Below, piece by piece: positions 576-11,398 of a stretch of DNA of 11,398 nucleotides. Each line of letters starts with the position of its first letter. Position 1 is the first letter of the stretch. A model generated the notes under the pieces. It worked only from the letters and a program-made list of their open reading frames with translations, made no database searches and was not told the origin of the DNA. The stretch is from Candidatus Zhuqueibacterota bacterium. Its GTDB lineage: Bacteria; SM23-31. The stretch lies in NCBI GenBank assembly GCA_022562855.1, contig JADFON010000032.1, positions 1 to 11,398 on the forward strand. Reading direction: 5' to 3'. The position numbers and the translations under genes were made by a program.

Positions 576-1301
576 TTATAATCCGCCATTAACCTGTTTC
601 ACATAGATGTGCTTTGCTATGTCGTAATCCAAAGCAAGATCGGTTTGTCCAACCTGCAAAACTATAGAAGGCTTTTTTTGATGCAGCTTGATAATCGAAC
701 CGGGTGTAATGCCAAATGTCATAAGCCGGTCAAGCCGTAAATTTGACTTGGGGGTCATAAATACAATTTTGCCCTCTTCACCGATTTTGAGATCTATAAG
801 AGGTTTGATGAGCGGCACAACTTTTTTTTGAAACGTAGAACAGCACTTTCCTCGCGGTATCGGCATATCGTGGGGACAATTAAGAGGATGACCGAGAAAA
901 GTACAGATGCTGTCTGCCACTTCTGTGGTCAAGACATGTTCAAATTCACATGCCTGTGAGTGCGCTGAAAAGTCGTCCATTGCGAGGATTTCACTGAATA
1001 ATACTTCGGCAAGACGGTGACGTCTTATCAGATTTTCAGCATATTTTTCACCTTCATCTGTAAAATTGACTTTTTCCGATTCGAGAATCAAAAAACCGTT
1101 CCGCACAAGTTCGTCGACCAATAGTTCCGGTTTATTCTCCTTCACTTTACTGGTAAGTTGTTCAAGGCTGTCCACTTCATTTTCCCTGTTTACCCAGATT
1201 TTGATAAGGACATGCTCCTTCGAGGATTTCTTTGTTTGAGACTCGTTTTCCTTTATTTCGAGACCTTCCGGATTAACAATCTTGTCTTTTACAGTATCCA
1301 T
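576..1301 (-). CDS. DtxR-family metal-dependent repressor with C-terminal FeoA/SH3-like domain
   Basis: This is a 241-aa cytoplasmic transcription factor that would sense Fe(II) or Mn(II) and repress metal-uptake genes. Order of parts: a charged N-terminal extension (1-28), a divergent winged helix (about 29-85), the DtxR dimerisation/metal-binding domain (about 90-155), and a FeoA-like SH3 domain (about 165-240). The DtxR metal ligands align with correct spacing: H95, E99, H114, C118, E121 and H122 match DtxR H79, E83, H98, C102, E105 and H106. The Cys at 118 is the iron-regulator residue; Bacillus MntR has Glu there. An extra Cys/His segment, C142-P-H144 to C153-C154, follows the dimerisation helix. 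The winged helix is weakly conserved, so the operator may be unusual. No clear Shine-Dalgarno precedes the ATG. The gene is divergent from modA. Family assignment is firm; the target genes are unknown. Confidence 0.9.
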   Translation of the reverse strand: MDTVKDKIVNPEGLEIKENESQTKKSSKEHVLIKIWVNRENEVDSLEQLTSKVKENKPELLVDELVRNGFLILESEKVNFTDEGEKYAENLIRRHRLAEVLFSEILAMDDFSAHSQACEFEHVLTTEVADSICTFLGHPLNCPHDMPIPRGKCCSTFQKKVVPLIKPLIDLKIGEEGKIVFMTPKSNLRLDRLMTFGITPGSIIKLHQKKPSIVLQVGQTDLALDYDIAKHIYVKQVNGGL

Positions 1302-1555
1302 ATAGAAATCACTTGAAGGGAATATAATGCCCCACAGAAGGGGAAAAATATTATTTAAAATCCATAATATCGGTCAAATATACACATATATAGCTCAATA
1401 ATCAATCTATAAAGAAACAGCAAAAGCGCCCTGGTTTTCCTCAATCCAAATATCGCAAAATGTACTTTTATAATTTTCGTGAATTGATTACCTTTTACCT
1501 GGTTCTCTCGGGGTATTTTCCTTAGTTGTCTCCGCATTTTATATAGGCAAATTTC
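1302..1555. promoter_or_regulatory. Divergent intergenic region, dtxR / modA
   Basis: This 254-nt, AT-rich stretch separates the dtxR-like gene (leftward) from modA (rightward), so it must hold promoters for both. A short hairpin, CCCC-acagaa-GGGG, lies at 1331-1344 in the dtxR leader. A TATATT-like -10 lies at 1326-1321 on the minus strand and TATATA at 1540-1545 on the plus strand, but I find no convincing -35 partner for either. I see no clear DtxR- or ModE-type palindrome and cannot confirm a molybdenum-cofactor riboswitch. A 60-codon minus-strand open frame inside it (1355-1537) has no recognisable features and is treated as noncoding. Confidence 0.4.
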
Positions 1556-2341
1556 GTGAAATCAAATTGCACAACTAATAAATATATTATCACAATCTTG
1601 AGTGTTCTTGTTGTCTTCTGCGGTTGCGGCCGGCAAGAGAATCCTGATGAATTGATAATTGCCGCCGCCACCAATCTGCAATATGCTCTCAAGGAAATCG
1701 GCGATAATTTCACCAGGAATAACGAAATATCCATTATTTTTGTCTGGTCTTCGTCAGGAAGTCTTGCCAATCAAATCCCGAACGGCGCTCCGTATGATAT
1801 ATTCTTCTCTGCAAATAAATCAATGATTGAGCCTCTCCGAAGTAAGGGATTTTTTCTCGATGAACATACCGTTACTTTTGCCGGCGGGCAAATTGCGATA
1901 GGTATCCCGGCAAATAATAGAAACCGTATTACCGGCACACCGGTCACCTTAAAAGATTTTGTCAATCCCGGCATGAAAAGAATTGTTATCGCCTCCCCCG
2001 ACCATGCGCCTTTCGGAATTGCGGCAAAAGAAGCTCTAACTAATCAAGGTCTGTGGGACAAAATCAAATCAAAATTATTGTATGCGGAAAATATACGGCA
2101 ATGTCTGCAATTCATTCAAACCGGAAACGCTGACGCCGGTATAATCTCTTCAAATATTCCGTCAATTGAAGGAATTTTAGTATTCCCCATTGAACAAAGC
2201 CTATATACGCCTCCTGAGCAAACGGCAGCGATTTTGAAAAACAGCCCTAATGCAGAAGCAGCTATCAAGTTTCTGAATTTTCTACGGGATAAGAGCAGTA
2301 CAGACATTTTAGAAAAATACAATTACACAATATTGCGTTAA
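1556..2341 (+). CDS. modA: Molybdate ABC transporter, periplasmic binding lipoprotein ModA
   Basis: This 261-aa extracytoplasmic binding protein captures molybdate (and probably tungstate) and delivers it to ModB/ModC. The N-terminus has a hydrophobic signal (residues 10-21) ending in F-C-G-C24, so it is probably a lipoprotein anchored through C24. Family signatures seen in order are AAATNLQYAL, SSGSLANQI, GAPYDIFFSANKSMI, and the strongly diagnostic region with SPDHAPFG, GLWDKI, AENIRQCLQFIQTGNADAGII. The frame opens with GTG at 1556; no ATG is available that keeps the signal peptide, and the ribosome site is weak (AGG about 10 nt upstream). The length is normal for ModA. It is the first gene of a three-gene operon and lies 34 nt before modB. 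The family assignment is secure; preference for molybdate over tungstate cannot be read from the sequence. Confidence 0.95.
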   Translation: MKSNCTTNKYIITILSVLVVFCGCGRQENPDELIIAAATNLQYALKEIGDNFTRNNEISIIFVWSSSGSLANQIPNGAPYDIFFSANKSMIEPLRSKGFFLDEHTVTFAGGQIAIGIPANNRNRITGTPVTLKDFVNPGMKRIVIASPDHAPFGIAAKEALTNQGLWDKIKSKLLYAENIRQCLQFIQTGNADAGIISSNIPSIEGILVFPIEQSLYTPPEQTAAILKNSPNAEAAIKFLNFLRDKSSTDILEKYNYTILR

Positions 2342-2375
2342 AATCTCATAAGAAAGTATTATTCCCGATTTACAT

Positions 2376-3041
2376 ATGGCAGAGATATCATTTTACCCGG
2401 TGTGGCTTTCCATTAAAGTTGCCTTAACCGCAACCACTGCAAATTTCTTTATAGGGACATTCCTCGCATATTTGCTTTCAAGGTATGACTTTTTTGGTAA
2501 GAATTTATTCGACGCGATCATAATGCAGCCGCTTATTATGCCGCCAACAGTATTGGGTTATTACCTGTTAGTCCTTCTCGGCAGACAGAGTTTTATCGGC
2601 AGATTTCTTGAGGATTATCTGGGAATAACTCTTGTTTTTACCTGGCAGGGCGCCGCATTAGCGGCGATGGTCGCCTCATTGCCTCTGTTTATAAAACCGG
2701 TTCGGGCAGCTATCGAATCAGTGAGTTCTCATATAGAGGACTCGGCAAGAATACTCGGCAAAAACGAGTGGCAGGTATTCAGACATATTACGTTTCCGCT
2801 TGCGCGAGGTGGAATTGTTGCCGGGACTGCCCTTGCATTTGCCCGGTCTCTCGGAGAATTCGGGACCACCCTTATGGTTGCAGGCAATATTCCGGGTAAA
2901 ACACAAACTGTTTCGATTGCTATTTATGATGCGGTTCAAGCGGGGAATACCGCCGGCGCACAGGTTCTTGTCGGACTTATTACTATAATTTCGGTCGTTA
3001 TTTTATATACGGTAAACAGAGTCGTAACCCGGAAATATTAA
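2376..3041 (+). CDS. modB: Molybdate ABC transporter permease ModB
   Basis: This 221-aa inner-membrane permease forms, as a dimer, the channel through which ModA-delivered oxyanion passes. It has about five hydrophobic segments in the usual ModB arrangement: N-terminal KVALTATTANFFIGTFLAYLL, a segment around MQPLIMPPTVLGYYLLVLLG (the PLI/VMPP-TVxGYYLL element is typical of ModB), and three further helices. The cytoplasmic EAA coupling loop that docks on ModC starts at about residue 121 (EDSARILGKNEWQVFRHITF) and continues into the LGEFG motif near 160. The ATG at 2376 is the first possible start after an in-frame stop at 2349. Its Shine-Dalgarno is poor, as for the other mod genes, so translation may depend on coupling with modA. 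Length is normal. Confidence 0.94.
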   Translation: MAEISFYPVWLSIKVALTATTANFFIGTFLAYLLSRYDFFGKNLFDAIIMQPLIMPPTVLGYYLLVLLGRQSFIGRFLEDYLGITLVFTWQGAALAAMVASLPLFIKPVRAAIESVSSHIEDSARILGKNEWQVFRHITFPLARGGIVAGTALAFARSLGEFGTTLMVAGNIPGKTQTVSIAIYDAVQAGNTAGAQVLVGLITIISVVILYTVNRVVTRKY

Positions 3042-3099
3042 GGCGGAAGAAATAATTAAAATTCAGTTAACTATTGGGTAACCCGGAAAAAATTCAAAT

Positions 3100-4200
3100 A
3101 TGTTATCCTTATCATTGCAAAAACGATTCGGAACGTTCTTTTTCGACGTTACGATTGAGGTTGAAAATGAAATATTGGTGCTTCTTGCGCCTTCGGGTGC
3201 GGGCAAGTCTCTTATACTCAATATGATAAGCGGTATCATTACGCCTGACAGCGGGAGAATAATGCTGAACGGGGTCGAGCTTTATAACAGCCGGAAAAAT
3301 ATTTCCTTACCCATCAGGAAAAGAAGCATCGGGTACATTTTTCAAGATTATGCTCTATTTCCCAACAAAACGGTGCAGGAAAATATCGCTTTCGGTATGC
3401 AGGATAACAATAATGCGAATACGAATCTTTCTCAACTGCTGAAAAGATTTGACTTAGAAGATAAAAGAAACGCATATCCGCACCAGCTTTCCGGCGGGCA
3501 GATGCAGCGTGTCGCTATTGCACGGGCTCTTGCGGCAAAATCACGTATTATGCTATTTGACGAACCTTTGTCGGCAGTGGACGTGCAATTGCGGGAATCT
3601 CTTCTTAACGAAATAAGCGAAATCTCAAAGCTATATTCCCTGCCGGTGTTATACGTAACCCACAATTTTCGTGAAGCGGAGCAAATCGGTGACAGAATTG
3701 CAATCATGAACGAAGGAAAACTTATTGAAGCGGCAGAAACGGGGAAAATATTCAGGAAACCTTCACAACTATTCACAGCGCAGTTTCTTGGAGTTAAAAA
3801 CATTTTCCCCTGCCATATAGAATCCCGTTCTCAGAAAAGCTGGAAAGTACGAATTCTCGACTCCTTTTCCTTAGACTGCAGCCCTGCAGAGGGATTTGAA
3901 GAAGCCGATTCGGCATGGCTTTGTGTCCATCCAAAAGACGTGCGGTTGATCGTGACAAAAGAAGACCGACCAAATATGTTTCCTGTATACGTTGAGGATA
4001 TGAAGATTGTGGATAGAGTGTTCCGGGTAACGATGCAGGTTTTTCATCCGGAGGACAAAGAAAAACCGGTGCCGAACTTTAAATTGTATATGGACATCGA
4101 GGAACTCACCTGCAGAAAATATAAACTCACCTTACATGAATTTGTCAACATATCCCTGAAACCCGACCGTCTTTTCCTCTGTTCTCAAGCAAAATCCTGA
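3100..4200 (+). CDS. modC: Molybdate ABC transporter ATP-binding protein ModC
   Basis: This 366-aa cytoplasmic ATPase powers the transporter. Motifs seen are Walker A APSGAGKS (30-37), Q-loop Gln82 in FQDYALFP, signature LSGGQ (130-134), Walker B IMLFDE (150-155), D-loop SAVD (158-161) and H-loop His188. Oddities are Ala in place of the usual first Gly of Walker A, Val in the D-loop (normally SALD), and THN where THD is usual. All catalytic residues remain, so it should be active. Residues about 235-366 occupy the place of the ModC regulatory molybdate-binding (TOBE/Mop) domain but are strongly diverged. The ATG at 3100 has only a distant GGA as ribosome site. It is the last gene of the mod operon, 58 nt after modB, and is followed 5 nt later by a terminator hairpin. 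Confidence 0.93.
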   Translation: MLSLSLQKRFGTFFFDVTIEVENEILVLLAPSGAGKSLILNMISGIITPDSGRIMLNGVELYNSRKNISLPIRKRSIGYIFQDYALFPNKTVQENIAFGMQDNNNANTNLSQLLKRFDLEDKRNAYPHQLSGGQMQRVAIARALAAKSRIMLFDEPLSAVDVQLRESLLNEISEISKLYSLPVLYVTHNFREAEQIGDRIAIMNEGKLIEAAETGKIFRKPSQLFTAQFLGVKNIFPCHIESRSQKSWKVRILDSFSLDCSPAEGFEEADSAWLCVHPKDVRLIVTKEDRPNMFPVYVEDMKIVDRVFRVTMQVFHPEDKEKPVPNFKLYMDIEELTCRKYKLTLHEFVNISLKPDRLFLCSQAKS

Positions 4201-4229: not shown

Positions 4230-4406
4230 CAAATACGTAAGGCGAAAAAAATGTAGAAAATTAGTTAGCCTGCAAAATTATACCCAGATTCAAAAATAGC
4301 TAAAAAATATGTACTTTATGGAAAAGAATTATTATTTTATTAAAACGTCATATATTGTCGCATCAAGTATTACATTGACTCTAAAAGTAAAGTGATGTGT
4401 GTATTT

Positions 4407-4410
4407 GGAG
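4407..4410 (+). promoter_or_regulatory. Shine-Dalgarno GGAG that decides the WYL gene start
   Basis: GGAG at 4407-4410 is followed by six A residues and then ATG at 4417. This is ideal spacing and favours 4417 over the in-frame GTG at 4399, which has no ribosome site and would itself contain this GGAG within its coding frame. Confidence 0.75.
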
Positions 4411-4416
4411 AAAAAA

Positions 4417-5412
4417 ATGGAAGCACAAGATTCACTAGTAAGAGCTATTAAGATCATTCAAAGACTGTCAGCAAGAAAAAAGCTAACAGTGAAAGAGCTT
4501 TACAATTATTTTGATGGCAATGTGGGGATTAGAACTCTTCAAAGGGATTTGAATAAGATCTCTGAGGCAGGGATACCGCTATTCTCTGAAAAGAGTACAG
4601 GAAATGAAAATGTTTGGTTTATAGATTCTCAATTCACTGGCTCTGAATTCCTTCCAATCTCACTAAATGAATATATGGTAGCCTCATATTTAAAAAAAGC
4701 ATTGCCAGTATTTAAAAACACCCCATTGGAAAAGGAATATGCCGATTTGGTAGATAAATTAGATCAGTTTTTACCGTCAGATTCATTTGATATTTTATTT
4801 GCAAACGACAATGCGATTGATGAAAATTTTGAAGCACTTGAGTTTGGAACTTTTGATTACAGTAAATATTCTGATCTTATCAAAAAAGTGCTATATGGAA
4901 TAGAAAAAAGATTGATATGCAATGTAACATACAAAAGTCCTGAGAATCCAGAAGCGAAGTCATTTGAGATTGAGCCATATAAGATCCTGCTATTTAATGG
5001 AGCTATGTATTTGATAGTATTCAATAGAAAATATCAGGAATTCAATCATCTTTCTTTAAATCGAATTGAGGAATTGGAAGTGACAGACAAAGTATTTCAG
5101 AAAGATCAGAAATATGAAAATGAGCGGTTTGTAAAAGACAGGTTTGGGCTAACATCATTACATGCCGAAAAAATTGAGCTTCTCGTTGACCAGTCCACAG
5201 TTCCATATATAGAAGGAAGGATATGGCACAGGTCACAGAAAACATCATTGGGTAAAGATGGATCAATGACGATCTCAATGAAGGTCAGTATTTCAGATGA
5301 TTTAATCGGATGGATATTAAGATGGCAGGGTGGAATAACTGTTTTGAAATCTGATAAACTAAAAAAGAAAATTTTAGATTCGCTGGAATATATGAAAATT
5401 AAATTCAGATAA
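4417..5412 (+). CDS. WYL-domain transcriptional regulator (winged HTH + WYL + WCX)
   Basis: This is a 331-aa cytoplasmic DNA-binding regulator. Residues about 8-70 form a winged helix-turn-helix with recognition helix RTLQRDLNKI (39-48). Residues about 150-225 form the WYL domain, with EPYKILLFNGAMYLIV followed by HLSLNRIEEL. The C-terminal part (about 235-331) matches the WCX extension. The name-giving Trp is replaced by Met (M197-Y-L199). WYL proteins bind nucleic-acid-derived or nucleotide ligands and often control accessory operons, including phage-defence loci (BrxR/CapW type); that role here is inference from context. It heads four co-oriented genes, 44 nt before the next. Codon use is extremely AT-rich (AGA, ATA, AAA) compared with modABC just upstream. 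An in-frame GTG at 4399 would add six residues but lacks a ribosome site. Family call firm; ligand and targets unknown. Confidence 0.88.
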   Translation: MEAQDSLVRAIKIIQRLSARKKLTVKELYNYFDGNVGIRTLQRDLNKISEAGIPLFSEKSTGNENVWFIDSQFTGSEFLPISLNEYMVASYLKKALPVFKNTPLEKEYADLVDKLDQFLPSDSFDILFANDNAIDENFEALEFGTFDYSKYSDLIKKVLYGIEKRLICNVTYKSPENPEAKSFEIEPYKILLFNGAMYLIVFNRKYQEFNHLSLNRIEELEVTDKVFQKDQKYENERFVKDRFGLTSLHAEKIELLVDQSTVPYIEGRIWHRSQKTSLGKDGSMTISMKVSISDDLIGWILRWQGGITVLKSDKLKKKILDSLEYMKIKFR

Positions 5413-5456
5413 TGTAGTAAAAAATGGTCGTTAATATATATTACAGGAGAATATAG

Positions 5457-5837
5457 ATGAAATCATTAACTAGAAGGAGCTTCCTTAAAAAATCAACACT
5501 ATCAATTTTGGCAACTGTTACCCTGTTAAAAGCAAAAAATATTTTCAGTAAAAACAAAACTCACAATGATGTTGCTGAGGAAAAAATTGATTATATTGCT
5601 AAAAACGAAAACTTCGAAACATGCCCTACATGTGAAGGATCCGGATGGGGAATGGATCCAGATAGAGATGTTGATTATAACGATGACGATTATATTAGAT
5701 ATGACATTTGTAAATCCTGTAGTGGGGAAGGTGAGATTCCAGAAAAATTAGCAAATAAGTTAAATCAAATACCCAGAAAGGTTAAAAATGAAGAAAGAGC
5801 TAAAAGTGTTATGGAAGAAATGCGGTACATTGGCTGA
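5457..5837 (+). CDS. Small Tat-signal protein with two CxxCxGxG zinc-knuckle motifs
   Basis: This is a 126-aa protein of unknown function. The N-terminus carries an almost perfect twin-arginine motif, T-R-R-S-F-L-K-K (residues 5-12), followed by a hydrophobic stretch (about 15-26), so it is predicted to be exported folded. The mature part contains a pair of DnaJ-type knuckles, C56-P-T-C59-E-G-S-G and C85-K-S-C88-S-G-E-G. Between them is a very acidic loop with many Asp and Tyr (67-83). One such pair can bind a single zinc, as in the DnaJ Cys-rich domain; no J-domain is present. AGGAG at 5445-5449 lies 7 nt before the ATG. The 3' end overlaps the GIY-YIG gene by 50 nt in another frame, implying tight coupling. 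A folded metalloprotein would explain Tat export; the biochemical role is unknown. Confidence 0.8.
   Translation: MKSLTRRSFLKKSTLSILATVTLLKAKNIFSKNKTHNDVAEEKIDYIAKNENFETCPTCEGSGWGMDPDRDVDYNDDDYIRYDICKSCSGEGEIPEKLANKLNQIPRKVKNEERAKSVMEEMRYIG
5775..5781 (+). promoter_or_regulatory. Shine-Dalgarno AGAAAGG inside the upstream gene
   Basis: AGAAAGG lies 6 nt before the ATG at 5788, within the 3' part of the preceding coding sequence. It supports initiation of the GIY-YIG gene inside the upstream gene, and so the 50-nt overlap, rather than a later non-ATG start. Confidence 0.65.
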
Positions 5838-6519
5838 TATTGATGACAGTTTGGTAAAATCTGACAAAGGTGTGTATATTTTTGTTTTTGAAGGAAATCC
5901 AAATAGAATAATTTATGTGGGAACTGCTTTTAGAACCTTTAAGATACGTTGGGAAGAGCATAAGCAACATTTGAGAGTTGGTGGATTTAGCATATTCAGG
6001 CCTCTCCAAAAAAAAACAGGAGATTTTCATAATATTGATATATACGATTCAATGAAATATGATAGATCTAATCCTATTGGAGATATGGAAAAACATTTCA
6101 GAAACTTGATGTGGAAAAAGCTTGTTTGGTTGCCAGGAAATAAAAGGAGAATTAAAACACAAGAATATGACAAACTGGATGTATTTGATGGGCATTATTT
6201 TTATAAATACGATTTTTTTGTCGAAGAATGGATAGATTATGTTGAAAAGTACATGATTAATATTGTTTTATTCGCCTGTTCTATAAGTGACGAGAATGAA
6301 GCTAAGGATCTAGAAACTCAAATTCAATATACTCTTAGGGAAAAACATAATTTAGGATTCTATAAAAATGCTGATCAGTGTTGGTTAGGAAAAGAAGGGA
6401 ACAAACCAACAGCGTTTGATAGAGAAATAAAATTTGAAGGATTGGATAATTTACTTTTACACAAGGATGATACAGTTTTATTAAGTGAAATGAAAAAAGA
6501 ATTTTTGAAAAGACATTAA
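5788..6519 (+). CDS. GIY-YIG-like nuclease-fold protein with large internal insertion
   Basis: This is a 243-aa predicted cytoplasmic protein. The N-terminal part carries the GIY-YIG signature: G28-V-Y30, twelve residues, then Y43-V-G45-T. It continues with R54 and H58 in IRWEEHK, matching the conserved Arg and His/Tyr positions of the catalytic helix. A candidate metal-binding Glu is E176 in AKDLETQIQYTL, followed by N188 after a short gap, resembling the LExxLI...N end of the fold. Between R54 and E176 lie about 120 residues, much more than in a minimal GIY-YIG domain, rich in Trp, Tyr, Lys and Phe. Known families with this fold include homing endonucleases, UvrC and restriction enzymes. 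Nuclease activity is plausible, since the key residues are present, but not shown. It overlaps the upstream Tat-protein gene and ends 60 nt before the LVIVD gene. GC is about 30% by eye. Confidence 0.7.
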   Translation: MKKELKVLWKKCGTLADIDDSLVKSDKGVYIFVFEGNPNRIIYVGTAFRTFKIRWEEHKQHLRVGGFSIFRPLQKKTGDFHNIDIYDSMKYDRSNPIGDMEKHFRNLMWKKLVWLPGNKRRIKTQEYDKLDVFDGHYFYKYDFFVEEWIDYVEKYMINIVLFACSISDENEAKDLETQIQYTLREKHNLGFYKNADQCWLGKEGNKPTAFDREIKFEGLDNLLLHKDDTVLLSEMKKEFLKRH

Positions 6520-6568
6520 ATGACGTTATAACCATTAAATTACTTCCCTCTTATATTGAATATTTGAA

Positions 6569-6574
6569 AGGAGG
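6569..6574 (+). promoter_or_regulatory. Consensus Shine-Dalgarno AGGAGG
   Basis: A perfect AGGAGG lies 5 nt before the ATG at 6580. It is the strongest ribosome site in the window and contrasts with the poor sites of the mod genes; it predicts high translation of the LVIVD protein. Confidence 0.75.
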
Positions 6575-6579
6575 GATTA

Positions 6580-7605
6580 ATGAAAAATCTTTATAGACGT
6601 GAATTCATACAAAAATCTGCAAGTATAGCACTTGGCTGTTCTCCATTTTATTTACAATTGCTTCAAAAAGGTATTCCTCCATCAAAGTTATCGATTAGTA
6701 AATCCAATTATAATCTTAGGTGCATTGGAATAAGGAAGGAGATAGGTTCTTGCTACTTAGATGTGAAAGAAAATTTTGTGTTTCTTTGCAATGGTACTTC
6801 CTTCGAAATTATTGAAATATTGAATAGTGAGAGAGTTCTAAGTCTTTCAAAATATCCCCTCCCTTCCGAACCGACAAATATAATTGTTATAGACGATTAC
6901 GCATATATTGTAATTGAAAATGAGGGTATCATAGTACTTGATATCAAAGACAAAAGATTTCCGAAACCAATAGGGAAATTTGAAACAGCAGTTAGAATCA
7001 GCGGATTTTTTAACTATGAAAAACTACTTTATTTGAATATGGATGGCAAAGTATTAAAGATTCTTGATATTCGTAATCCGTCAAAGTTTGTGGAGATTGG
7101 GAATATATATGAGAGTAGCCTAATAGATTTTCTAATAAAAGGTGATTTTGCTTACTGCATCAACCATTTTGAAGGATTGAAAATATTCGATATAAAAAAT
7201 CCTAAAAATCCAAAATTAATAAGTTCCTTAAAATATAATTGGGCTTTTAATATTCACAATTTATATAGTTATAAGTATTTCTTGTGCAGTCATGTTCTTG
7301 GAACACCTAATGACAACAAAGTTGAAACTTTGATGATTGATGCCACGAATGAAGAGAATCCATTAATAAAAAAGGTATTCGAATGGGATGTTAACACAAT
7401 AAGGACAAACGATCAACAGAGAATTGCCTATGTAACCGATTTTCAACGTAATGGGATAGCAGTGCTAGATATTAGTATCCCACCAAAAAGTAAGGAATTG
7501 GGTTTTTACAAAACAAAAAACTTTTTCTGGTTAGATGCAGTATTGGAAGACTGTTTTTTGGGAACAGAAAAAGAAAAAGGGATAGTAATTTATAGATACA
7601 AATAG
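6580..7605 (+). CDS. Exported LVIVD-repeat beta-propeller protein (Tat-type signal)
   Basis: This is a 341-aa predicted extracytoplasmic protein. The N-terminus has a twin-arginine motif Y-R-R-E-F-I-Q-K (5-12) and a short hydrophobic stretch ending A-L-G-C20, which could also be a lipobox. The remainder is built of LVIVD-type repeats, which form propeller blades: GIIVLDIKD...PKPIGKF (about 116-134), VLKILDIRNPSKFVEIGNI (about 158-176), GLKIFDIKNPKNPKLISSL (about 199-217) and GIAVLDISIPPKSKELGFY (about 292-310), with less regular blades in between. LVIVD propellers occur on surface or periplasmic proteins and usually act as binding scaffolds; no enzymatic residues are evident. It is the last gene of the AT-rich cassette. 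No clear terminator follows before the toxin-antitoxin promoter 70 nt downstream. Its partner or ligand is unknown. Confidence 0.85.
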   Translation: MKNLYRREFIQKSASIALGCSPFYLQLLQKGIPPSKLSISKSNYNLRCIGIRKEIGSCYLDVKENFVFLCNGTSFEIIEILNSERVLSLSKYPLPSEPTNIIVIDDYAYIVIENEGIIVLDIKDKRFPKPIGKFETAVRISGFFNYEKLLYLNMDGKVLKILDIRNPSKFVEIGNIYESSLIDFLIKGDFAYCINHFEGLKIFDIKNPKNPKLISSLKYNWAFNIHNLYSYKYFLCSHVLGTPNDNKVETLMIDATNEENPLIKKVFEWDVNTIRTNDQQRIAYVTDFQRNGIAVLDISIPPKSKELGFYKTKNFFWLDAVLEDCFLGTEKEKGIVIYRYK

Positions 7606-7675
7606 ACAGCATAATACTTTTGATATATGGTTCTGAGTCGACGATTCAATTATCCTGTCATATCTGCAAAAATGC

Positions 7676-7706
7676 TTGACATTACGTACATTATTGCGTA
7701 CGTTAA
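7676..7706 (+). promoter_or_regulatory. Promoter and palindromic operator of the toxin-antitoxin module
   Basis: A consensus -35 TTGACA (7676-7681) is followed directly by an inverted repeat: TTACGTAC (7682-7689), 8-nt spacer, GTACGTTA (7698-7705), arms matching at 7 of 8 positions. The right arm overlaps the -10 region; TACGTT at 7699-7704 has 17-bp spacing but is a weak match. A palindrome placed between -35 and start is the expected autoregulatory site for a YefM/Phd antitoxin. An in-frame ATG at 7627 lies upstream of this promoter and cannot be the real antitoxin start. Confidence 0.7.
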
Positions 7707-7728
7707 TACAAAAATCAGAGCCAAATAT

Positions 7729-7971
7729 ATGAGGACAATTTCTGCAACAAAGGCACGTGCACAACTATATAAGCTGCTTGACGAAGCTTCACAAGTGCAT
7801 GAGCCGATACAGATTACCGGAAAGCGGTCAAACGCTATTTTGATAGGAGAATCCGACTGGCGGGCTATAGAAGAGACAATTTACCTTTTATCCATACCCA
7901 ATATGAGAGAGTCTATACGGGAAGGACTTAAAGAACCTATTGATACATGCTCAAAGGACCTTGATTGGTGA
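7729..7971 (+). CDS. Type II antitoxin, Phd/YefM family
   Basis: This 80-aa antitoxin neutralises the downstream YoeB-type toxin by protein-protein contact and represses its own promoter. The N-terminal MRTISATKARAQLYKLLDEA is the classic YefM/Phd DNA-binding fold start. EPIQITGKRSNAILIGESDW follows, and the C-terminal toxin-wrapping segment ends in the typical acid-rich CSKDLDW. The frame is open 34 codons further upstream, but that extension reads through the promoter and operator and has no family similarity, so ATG 7729 is chosen. The stop codon overlaps the toxin start in GTGA (7968-7971). Composition returns here to that of the genome left of the AT-rich cassette. Confidence 0.93.
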   Translation: MRTISATKARAQLYKLLDEASQVHEPIQITGKRSNAILIGESDWRAIEETIYLLSIPNMRESIREGLKEPIDTCSKDLDW

Positions 7972-8231
7972 GCTGGAAAATTGTTTTTTCCAAACACGCA
8001 CAGAAAGATGCGAAGAAGTTAAAAACCGCCGGGTTAAAAGACCAAGCGATTGAACTGCTTGAAATCCTCAAAAAAGACCCATATCAAAGCCCTCCCCGGT
8101 TTGAAAAGCTAATCGGCGACCTTGAAGGCGCTTATTCAAGAAGGATCAATGTTCGGCACAGGTTAGTATATCAAATTCTCGAAAAAGATAAAACAGTGAA
8201 GATCATTAGAATGTGGACACATTATGAGTAG
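7968..8231 (+). CDS. YoeB/Txe-family mRNA interferase toxin (RelE superfamily)
   Basis: This 87-aa toxin cleaves mRNA in the ribosomal A site when freed from its antitoxin. It begins SWKIVFSKHAQKDAKKL, as usual for the family, and keeps all catalytic residues: E46, R65 in VRHRLVYQI, and H85 near the end, matching E. coli YoeB E46, R65 and H83. The SRRI-N-x-x-HRLVY core is intact, so the toxin should be functional. GTG at 7968 overlaps the antitoxin stop by 4 nt (GTGA) and has AAAGGA 9 nt upstream; a TTG three bases earlier (7965) is the only alternative. This coupling is typical of antitoxin-first operons. It ends 55 nt before the convergent end of the next gene. Confidence 0.93.
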   Translation: MSWKIVFSKHAQKDAKKLKTAGLKDQAIELLEILKKDPYQSPPRFEKLIGDLEGAYSRRINVRHRLVYQILEKDKTVKIIRMWTHYE

Positions 8232-8286
8232 AAAATATCTGTTTATTTCGAATTAATGGCAAACTTAAACTCTTGATATTTGCAAT

Positions 8287-9945
8287 CTACTTTGAAAAAA
8301 GCAGGAGAATGAATTCCTTTATCCACTGAATGAGACCGATAGAAACGCTGTAGGCATTCCGTATAGATACAGCCATCCTGTATTCTTTGGAGTTCATGTA
8401 CGACCAATATCTTTTCTTCGCTAAAGGCAGTGTGAGTTTTCTGTCACTATTGAACCTTTTTTTTATTTCCAATGCTTCATTATATTTCTTAGCATTGAAA
8501 ACCAGCTGCCATTCCTTGTGAGCGGTTTCTTGTATCATACTTCTTGGCATCCGGAATAATTTTGCAAACTCCGAAGCGGGTTCAAATTCCTTTTCCTGCA
8601 TCATCTCTTTAAACGTGCCGGTAACACGGGCACGGTCTTTATCCTTTGTTATATTGAATTGAAACTCATTTTTTATTGCGAATGCGTCCTTATACGATTT
8701 TTTTTCGATGAGATCCAATACCGCGGAGAACACAGAATCGTTTACCATTTCCTTAGGAACGCCGTATTCGTTTATTGCCATAATAGCAGGTTGGATTTGT
8801 GCTTTTTCCAAGGATTTTTCGACAAAAACCGCACCATGTTGTGCGGCAACTTCCTTACTCTTTTTTGTTTTATACTTGTCGAATATTCCATATTCTTTTT
8901 TGAAGGCAAGCGCTCCCGCGAGATCGTCATTCTCCAACAAAGATTTATGATAGTTCTCGGCAGCTTCCACGAGTGTACAATAATTCTCGTAAGGGATGGG
9001 CGCAACAAACAATTTGAGCGAATCCCTGAGCATTCGGGCAGGTTTAACATCCCCTTTTTTTAACATTGCATTATGAGCTTTTACTCCTTCTTTCAAATAA
9101 AACTGCGAAAGATCTTTCAAGTATTCATTCAAAATTTCCCTGCGGAGCAGTTGCATGGCTTCAGCAAGTTCAAGCATCAATTGAAATTTCCCGGCTGCAA
9201 ACGAGGGTTCTATAAGTAACCGTTTAATATTATCGAGCAGTTTTTCAGCGTCCTTTTCCAAAATCGCCCCGAATACTTCATCTTTTCCCAGCTTAAACTC
9301 GGTCATCAACTCGATCGCCCGGTATTCATCCTGGTTTTCGCTAAGACTTGCTATACAAGCCCGTATCGCCGCCGACAGTGTTCTGCTTGCTGAAAAATTG
9401 AAAACTTTTCCAAGCATTGCGGCTTTATACACCTGCCCGGCGGTAAATGCCTTGTTAAACTCTGCGATGGCAAATCCGAGTAATTCTTCCTTCGGCAGAT
9501 TGTATTTTTCCAGGATATCCAATGCTTCGTTACTTTTATCGTTTTGCAAGAAGTCTTCGAACGCCATTTTCGCCGACCGGTGAATCTCTACGTCTGCCAG
9601 ACCCTCGGCAGCGGCCCATTCTGCGGCGGTTTCGTATTTTTTTTCTTTATTAAGTTTGTTCCATTCGGCAATAACAACGGACTGGATTTCCGATTCGGGA
9701 AAGCCGAACTTTTTTGCAATTTTAAGCGCAGTTTTTAACTCCAGCGTTTCTTTGTGCAGATCGAACGCATCCCTGGTGTTATGATTTACGGTTTGTTCCG
9801 GAAGGTCGTTGGCATCCCTGAATTGTGCTGCCTCTTCGATTTCCCCATTAAGAAGAAGTTCCCGAAAATGCTGGATTTTTTCTTCAACCGACGCATGATC
9901 GCCGTTCTGAGATTGATCTTGACTGGAAATATCTTCCATATTCAT
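8287..9945 (-). CDS. Alpha-solenoid protein of about 13 tandem 34-residue helical repeats, function unknown
   Basis: This is a 552-aa protein of no family I recognise. After an acidic, Gln/Ser-rich N-terminus (1-20), nearly the whole chain is a tandem array of two-helix repeats of about 34 residues. Each has an aromatic or Ala-aromatic opening (AF, EW, EF, FY), a Lys/Glu/Asn-rich loop, an A-L/A-x-I helix, an aromatic-Gly/Asn-hydrophobic turn often with Pro, and an acidic-Leu helix. Three consecutive units start at EWNKLNKEKKY, AFEDFLQNDKS and EFNKAFTAGQV with a strict 34-residue period; units in the middle (about 220-330) drift to longer lengths. The design resembles TPR/PPR-type solenoids, suggesting a binding scaffold. 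The last 20 residues are hydrophobic (GLIQWIKEFILLLFSK) and could touch a membrane. No signal peptide. The ATG lacks a clear Shine-Dalgarno; an ATG two codons later is equally possible. Confidence 0.8.
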   Translation of the reverse strand: MNMEDISSQDQSQNGDHASVEEKIQHFRELLLNGEIEEAAQFRDANDLPEQTVNHNTRDAFDLHKETLELKTALKIAKKFGFPESEIQSVVIAEWNKLNKEKKYETAAEWAAAEGLADVEIHRSAKMAFEDFLQNDKSNEALDILEKYNLPKEELLGFAIAEFNKAFTAGQVYKAAMLGKVFNFSASRTLSAAIRACIASLSENQDEYRAIELMTEFKLGKDEVFGAILEKDAEKLLDNIKRLLIEPSFAAGKFQLMLELAEAMQLLRREILNEYLKDLSQFYLKEGVKAHNAMLKKGDVKPARMLRDSLKLFVAPIPYENYCTLVEAAENYHKSLLENDDLAGALAFKKEYGIFDKYKTKKSKEVAAQHGAVFVEKSLEKAQIQPAIMAINEYGVPKEMVNDSVFSAVLDLIEKKSYKDAFAIKNEFQFNITKDKDRARVTGTFKEMMQEKEFEPASEFAKLFRMPRSMIQETAHKEWQLVFNAKKYNEALEIKKRFNSDRKLTLPLAKKRYWSYMNSKEYRMAVSIRNAYSVSIGLIQWIKEFILLLFSK

Positions 9946-10062
9946 GCGGATTCAGGTAGGACGTATCAAAAAATTTAATATGACAAACTAAAATAATTTT
10001 GCTTCAATTCCTTCAAATTTCCTAAAAACTTAATAGAAAAGCAAGATAATTATATAATTTGA

Positions 10063-10081
10063 GCCGGTTCAAATATCCGGC
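10063..10081 (-). other. Small GC hairpin between the btuF-like fragment and the solenoid gene
   Basis: GCCGG (10063-10067) and CCGGC (10077-10081) form a 5-bp stem with a 9-nt loop in otherwise AT-rich DNA, about 40 nt past the btuF-like stop on the minus strand. It lacks a downstream T-run, so it is at best a weak terminator. Nothing else recognisable lies in the 177-nt gap 9946-10122. Confidence 0.3.
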
Positions 10082-10122
10082 GAATAATCCTGCAAAACTT
10101 TTATCGAGTCGAAAATTCACGT

Positions 10123-10704
10123 TCACTTTGCACTTAGATTTTCGAACAAAATCCTTTGAACATAGGGCAAACCGGGAATCATCCGGACACCATACCAGCT
10201 AAATAATTCACCGTCGGCAAGATATACCCTATTGTTACGTACGGCGGGAATATCCTTGCAGCGGTTAATTTCATCTGCGTGTTTTTTCTTGAAAGGAAAC
10301 GGTTCGGAAGGAAGCACAATTATATCCGGCTGAGAAGATTCTATATCGTCAATCGATATTTCCGGATACCTGTTTTGATTTTCAGCATATAGATTTAATC
10401 CACCGCAAAAACTAATAAGGTCGTGAATATACGTATCCTTATTAATTGTCATATATGGTTTTCGCCAGATCAGGTAAATAACCGAAGGACGGGCGGTAAT
10501 CGTGGAAGTCATTTCTCTTGTTTTATGTATCGCACGTTCAGCCCTTTCATACCATTCGTGTGCCATTTTATCCGTTCCCGTTATCGTACCCAGAGTTTTG
10601 ATCAACTCAAGACTTTCCGTAATCGACCGGGGATAAGTCACAAATACCGGTACGCCTTCGTTTTCCAGTCTTATGATATCTTTTTCCTCAAATAATATTT
10701 TTGG
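10123..10704 (-). pseudogene. BtuF-like cobalamin/metal-chelate ABC substrate-binding protein, 5' end missing
   Basis: About 193 residues of a periplasmic helical-backbone binding protein (BtuF/FecB/FhuD class) end at the stop at 10123. Recognisable parts are FEEKDIIRLENEGVPVFVTY, SITESLELIKTLGTITG, the long linker helix with WYERAERAIHKT, then the C-terminal lobe with PSVIYLIWRKPYMT, FCGGLNLYAE, ISIDDIESSQPDIIVLP and RVYLADGELFSWYGVRM. The signal peptide and first lobe (roughly 80-100 residues) are absent. The frame stays open to 10860, but those first 50 or so residues are Cys/Arg-rich nonsense read antisense through an fmdB-like gene. The gene is therefore cut at about 10700, probably by a false join rather than mutation. 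It would feed a BtuCD-type importer for a corrinoid or siderophore; the exact substrate is not resolvable. Confidence 0.82.
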
Positions 10705-10712
10705 TTTCTGGT
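10692..10712. other. Junction of two unrelated sequences (likely chimera point)
   Basis: Left of here the minus strand reads as BtuF (residues P-K-I-L-F-E-E-K). Right of here the plus strand reads as an FmdB tail (S-G-F-Y-Q-T-D-Y-R). Both genes lose their 5' ends within these bases. GC rises from about 40% to about 55% by eye. The exact breakpoint is blurred over 10-20 bases because the T/G-rich sequence fits both sides. Confidence 0.7.
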
Positions 10713-10868
10713 TTTTATCAAACCGATTATCGCAGTGAGTCTTACAAAAAAGCCGCCGCCGCAGACAAGAAATTGGCGGAAGGCAGCAGTTCGTCGTCCG
10801 ACTCAAAAGGCAAATCCGATTCCACCTCAGAAAAAAAGAGTGGCAGTAGCGGCAAGTCAAATGACTGA
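10707..10868 (+). pseudogene. C-terminal tail of an FmdB-type zinc-ribbon protein, 5' end missing
   Basis: In the frame ending with TGA at 10866-10868 the sequence reads SGFYQTDYRSESYKKAAAA and then a Ser/Asp/Lys-rich low-complexity tail (DKKLAEG, SSSSSDSKGKSD, EKKSGSSGKSND). GSGFYxTDYRS-YKKA followed by a serine-rich tail is characteristic of FmdB-family small zinc-ribbon proteins, notably of planctomycetes; this is from memory of the family. The N-terminal zinc ribbon with its CxxC pairs is missing left of the junction. The stop overlaps the yacG start by 8 nt, indicating an operon. The frame is hidden by a different plus-strand open frame opening at 10735 that runs into yacG; that frame is a shadow in its first part. 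Confidence 0.65.
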
Positions 10869-11043
10869 ACTTACTTGTGCAATTTGCGGGAAGACGATTC
10901 CAACGGGCACGCCTGCGGATAAACGGCCTCTCCCGTTCTGCTCCGAACGCTGTCGTAAGATTGATCTAGGTCGCTGGTTGGGCGAGCGCTATCGGGTGAG
11001 CCAGCCGCTTTCAGGCGGACTGGAGGAAGAGGAAGGGATGTGA
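10861..11043 (+). CDS. yacG: YacG-type DNA gyrase inhibitor zinc-finger protein
   Basis: This is a 60-aa small zinc protein. A zinc site is formed by C6-A-I-C9 and C27-S-E-R-C31, and the segment PFCSERCRKIDLGRWLGERY is the YacG hallmark (C-x3-C followed by IDLGRWL). In E. coli YacG binds GyrB and inhibits DNA gyrase; that function is taken from the family. ATG 10861 overlaps the end of the preceding fmdB-like frame by 8 nt, consistent with translational coupling. A longer in-frame extension to 10735 exists but reads the fmdB region out of frame and has no YacG similarity. GC (about 57% by eye) differs sharply from everything left of 10700, suggesting a planctomycete source. Confidence 0.9.
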   Translation: MTELTCAICGKTIPTGTPADKRPLPFCSERCRKIDLGRWLGERYRVSQPLSGGLEEEEGM

Positions 11044-11261
11044 CTTTTTCGCTTCGGCCTGCGCCTGCGTAACTCGCGAAAAGAGCTCCTCGACGCTCTA
11101 GCCCGGCGGCGGTAGGAGCGTGCTATAATTGGTTGCAACAAGAACCCAGGCTCGTATAATCCCTGTACTTATGGAAATGAGAGGTCGGTCGGCCGAATGC
11201 TGGGCAGGGCCCTGTCAATGCAACCGTGCCCGGGGCGTAGTCCTTTAGAAAGCGTAGACCG
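11044..11261. other. GC-rich stretch after yacG without a recognisable gene
   Basis: I find no supportable coding sequence in this stretch. A plus-strand promoter-like pair, TTGCAA (11133-11138) and TATAAT (11155-11160) with 16-bp spacing, is the only signal. GCTCCT and AGGAGC around 11084-11119 could form a loose stem. An 87-codon minus-strand open frame (11123-11386) runs through the MITE-like repeat and is not believed. Confidence 0.35.
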
Positions 11262-11302
11262 CTAGGAGCCTGTTGAAAAACCCATCCAATTCCAAAATGA
11301 GT

Positions 11303-11323
11303 GACACTGGCTCTGCCAGTGTC
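11303..11323. repeat. Perfect hairpin, 9-bp arms with 3-nt loop
   Basis: GACACTGGC (11303-11311), loop TCT, GCCAGTGTC (11315-11323). It lies in the left half of the MITE-like element. Its 17-nt core is the exact reverse complement of the core of the second hairpin. Confidence 0.85.
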
Positions 11324-11355
11324 GGCACAATGGGGCAGTTTCCTAGCGAGACAAG

Positions 11356-11372
11356 CACTGGCAGAGCCAGTG
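11356..11372. repeat. Perfect hairpin, 7-bp arms with 3-nt loop
   Basis: CACTGGC (11356-11362), loop AGA, GCCAGTG (11366-11372). It is the inverted copy of the 11305-11321 core, so the element is itself a nested inverted repeat. Confidence 0.85.
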
Positions 11373-11398
11373 GCACACTTTCTCAACAGGCTGCTAGG

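Follow-up and report, generated by a model that had tools for sequence, protein, structure and literature searches.

A probable chimeric join between a bacterial draft genome and planctomycete DNA near the end of an 11,398 bp contig

The contig analysed here is very probably a chimera, in which DNA of a metagenome-assembled genome (MAG) has been joined artificially to planctomycete DNA inside two genes, btuF and fmdB. The two sides differ in origin and both genes are truncated; that they were brought together by an artefact rather than by a transfer is our inference. The window, meaning the whole stretch of DNA that was analysed, is the entire contig C472 (11398 bp) of the draft genome G000, which has 491 contigs, a size of 2.5 Mb, a completeness of 79.6% and a contamination of 2.5%, its fragmentation into so many contigs indicating that it is a MAG. 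The collection holds six genomes of its class, namely G000 and five relatives. Bases 1 to about 10689 would be genuine MAG sequence, and the last 0.7 kb (about 10707–11398) would come from a co-occurring, Pirellulales-like planctomycete. The two pieces would have been joined artificially within btuF and fmdB, the non-homologous chimera would have been carried into a low-coverage contig end, and the contig would then break at a planctomycete repeat. The features on both sides of the join are listed in Table 1.

Table 1. Features around the join, with positions in the window.
Feature	Position	Strand	Evidence or remark
Gene of 552 aa without a Pfam hit, downstream of btuF	8287..9945	-	Synteny partner; similar gene beside btuF in G001
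BtuF/TroA-like periplasmic binding-protein gene, 3' part; 5' part missing	10123..10689	-	Peripla_BP_2 match and 62% identity to intact G001 homologue
Join zone AAATAATATTTTTGGTT, assigned to neither side	10690..10706		Left homology end ~10689, right homology start ~10707
Planctomycete FmdB-family zinc-ribbon gene, 3' part (C-terminal tail); 5' zinc-ribbon part missing	10707..10868	+	SGFYQTDYRSESYKKAAAADKK
yacG, planctomycete	10861..11043	+	PF03884, E=1.9e-14; best relatives Planctomycetota
Palindromic repeat element, CACTGGCAGAGCCAGTG and flanking inverted arms; contig ends inside	11262..11397		Inverted repeats

On the left side, the BtuF-like protein matches Pfam Peripla_BP_2 with E=8e-19, and since the match covers profile positions 71–233 of 235 the N-terminal third of the protein is missing. 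It also matches the NCBIfam model TroA_like (E=1e-26), while the BtuF equivalog model is matched weakly, and BtuF-like is therefore the proper strength of the name. The homologues in G001 and G002, which belong to the same family, are full length, and the window protein aligns well with both up to about 10689, where the alignment collapses at the expected place of a conserved PDLVIANxEEN motif, of which PDL(V/I)IA is kept in relatives from several phyla. In G001 btuF and a neighbour of the 552-aa type are found in the same order, the likeness of the neighbours being judged by eye (e.g. YKAAMLG.FNFS.SRTLSAA). The left side is thus native to the MAG, as btuF and its neighbour are syntenic in G001 and btuF is intact in both relatives. 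The missing 5' half of btuF has no match elsewhere in the MAG, but sampled contigs below 3 kb read as N and the search carries little weight. The 552-aa protein has the appearance of degenerate helical repeats. A TTG start at 10860, proposed by the ORF finder for the minus-strand frame, was rejected, the frame there running antisense through foreign DNA.

On the right side, the tail of FmdB (SGFYQTDYRSESYKKAAAADKK, from position 10707) is nearly identical to FmdB proteins of Pirellulales; it reads SGFYQTDYRSESYKKAAAADKKLAEGSSSSS..., and near-identical tails are found in planctomycete FmdB-type zinc-ribbon proteins. In every planctomycete FmdB compared the tail is immediately preceded by FKG, and in the window by FLV. 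The missing zinc-ribbon part corresponds to TIGR02605, as identified on a planctomycete homologue, and a profile search of the tail for FmdB gave no match, which is no surprise, the profile being built on the very domain that is lacking here. The start of yacG and the stop of fmdB overlap by 8 nt, and in most of the planctomycete loci inspected the gene immediately upstream of yacG is fmdB. Among the nearest YacG homologues in GTDB genomes 15 of 17 are planctomycete, and YacG is present in 136 of the 146 genomes of one Pirellulales order. The right arm is short. The nearest YacG shares only about 56% identity with that of the window, and when the arm was compared at the DNA level with 14 planctomycete genomes, only short matches were obtained, none of which marked a near source genome.

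The contig ends 692 bp beyond the join, inside a nested palindrome with the core CACTGGCNGAGCCAGTG, which in the MAG is found only here. There are 30 copies of the core in the planctomycete G089, and it is present also in the planctomycetes G091, G145 and G152; it was found in none of the five class relatives, nor in most of the planctomycetes tested, and a search of viral contigs gave two matches. The dispersed planctomycete copies support the assignment of the right side to planctomycetes, without being proof of it.

The btuF-like gene on the minus strand and fmdB on the plus strand are broken at one point, each without its 5' part, and both are intact in relatives of their respective sides. 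This loss of two 5' ends had been read from the letters alone in the earlier note, and the Peripla_BP_2 match that begins at position 71 and the FmdB without zinc ribbon bear it out. The join itself, which had been placed at 10692–10712, can be narrowed to about 10690–10706, inside the former interval to within 2 bp. About 17 bp separate the left and right homologies, each of which breaks off cleanly at a conserved position, with no visible overlap of the two. A misjoin in a de Bruijn graph normally requires both templates to have a k-mer of at least 20 bases in common, and no overlap of the homologies by that length was seen, as judged from conserved residues in relatives and not from the source genomes. 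As the homologies do not overlap, a non-homologous join (a library or ligation chimera, an amplification chimera or a read chimera) is somewhat favoured over one at a long shared k-mer, going by the relatives.

The composition changes abruptly at the join. The GC content is 40.5% over 8232–10689 and 54.5% over 10707–11398, in good agreement with the jump from about 40% to about 55% noted earlier, and the compositional change point is at 10749, slightly to the right of the join, since the FmdB tail begins with a part of moderate GC content. Third-order Markov models were trained on 61 kb of other MAG contigs and on 46 kb of planctomycete loci, and the log-likelihood ratio (host minus planctomycete) of the right 691 bp is -62.5 bits, near the median of 61 planctomycete segments (-65). 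The left part scores above zero in all of its 690-bp segments, also across the low-GC stretch of 4.2–7.6 kb, and the lowest score there (+17) belongs to a segment that starts at 10351 and itself crosses the join. That the right side could be native to the MAG lineage, with GC variation and gene rearrangement explaining the jump, gains something from the GC content ranging from 30% to 48% inside the window for other reasons, but we regard it as scarcely credible: the 86 segments of the same size from the host MAG score from +9 to +110, which places the right arm outside all of them and beyond the host range, the best matches to the fmdB-yacG pair and to its sequence are in planctomycetes, and YacG is absent from all five other genomes of the class, incomplete as these are. 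In the MAG of the window YacG occurs once, at this contig end.

A real recombination, with a planctomycete fragment integrated by non-homologous transfer into btuF of the MAG bacterium, would fit the sequence across the join, which is continuous and without N. It would make the contig a case of DNA capture across phyla, real, recent and non-homologous, from a planctomycete into the MAG bacterium, with disruption of a btuF-like gene; such a capture we consider very unlikely. Against the recombination itself, similarly improbable, speaks the lack of an integrase, transposase, transposon end or inverted repeat at 10650–10750 in the ORF and repeat lists, there being no other mobile signal at the join, and the import would consist of a broken fmdB and yacG that have kept planctomycete composition and a planctomycete repeat without amelioration. 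Moreover, the contig stops within the foreign piece, and neither this piece nor the join is found in the class relatives. The earlier judgement that a chimera is likelier than a natural joining of two genomes is thus supported, since the sides belong to different phyla, YacG and the repeat are absent from the other genomes of the class and the joint is absent in relatives. The separate taxonomic search of each side that had been proposed led on the left to the lineage of the MAG itself, where synteny is conserved, and on the right to Planctomycetota, where the synteny of fmdB and yacG is conserved. The warning that a linkage of btuF and yacG should be distrusted is upheld, and the same distrust is due to any other linkage of genes on opposite sides of the join.

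Elsewhere in the window, the region 576–4200 holds a metal-regulator gene of DtxR/FeoA type and, in divergent orientation, an operon for an ABC transporter of molybdate type, encoding ModA, ModB and an ATPase that is nearer to the PhnT2/WtpC models than to ModC. The region 4250–7600 has a GC content of about 30–33% and a strong positive GC skew, and it contains genes for a WYL-domain regulator, a small DnaJ-CxxCxGxG-like protein, a GIY-YIG-like protein and an LVIVD-repeat protein; this stretch may be a genomic island, although it is host-like by the Markov model. It is followed at 7627–8231 by a type II toxin-antitoxin pair, a Phd/YefM antitoxin and a YoeB/ParE-type toxin, with a 7-nt overlap, where the start listed for the antitoxin ORF may be too early.

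The importance of the artificial join is one of quality control only, the artefact being of an ordinary kind. The contig should be trimmed back to about 10690, and none of the following should be attributed to the MAG: yacG, the fmdB of this contig, the palindromic repeat, a btuF-yacG linkage and a disruption of btuF.

Chimerism that goes undetected is common among MAGs (PMC8201837). Like the inter-species chimeric MAG contigs that GUNC is aimed at (PMC8201837), the contig combines genes from two lineages, and its composition changes abruptly between them, but here the foreign part is the terminal 0.7 kb only, which would probably be hard for gene-count methods to notice. Amplification chimeras have also been documented, over 70% of them with a short shared sequence of 2–21 nt (PMC1855051), and those that arise by strand displacement and re-priming resemble the present case in that two templates are joined with short or no shared sequence. 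They were mostly intramolecular inversions from an amplified single cell, whereas the join in the window is between organisms (PMC1855051).
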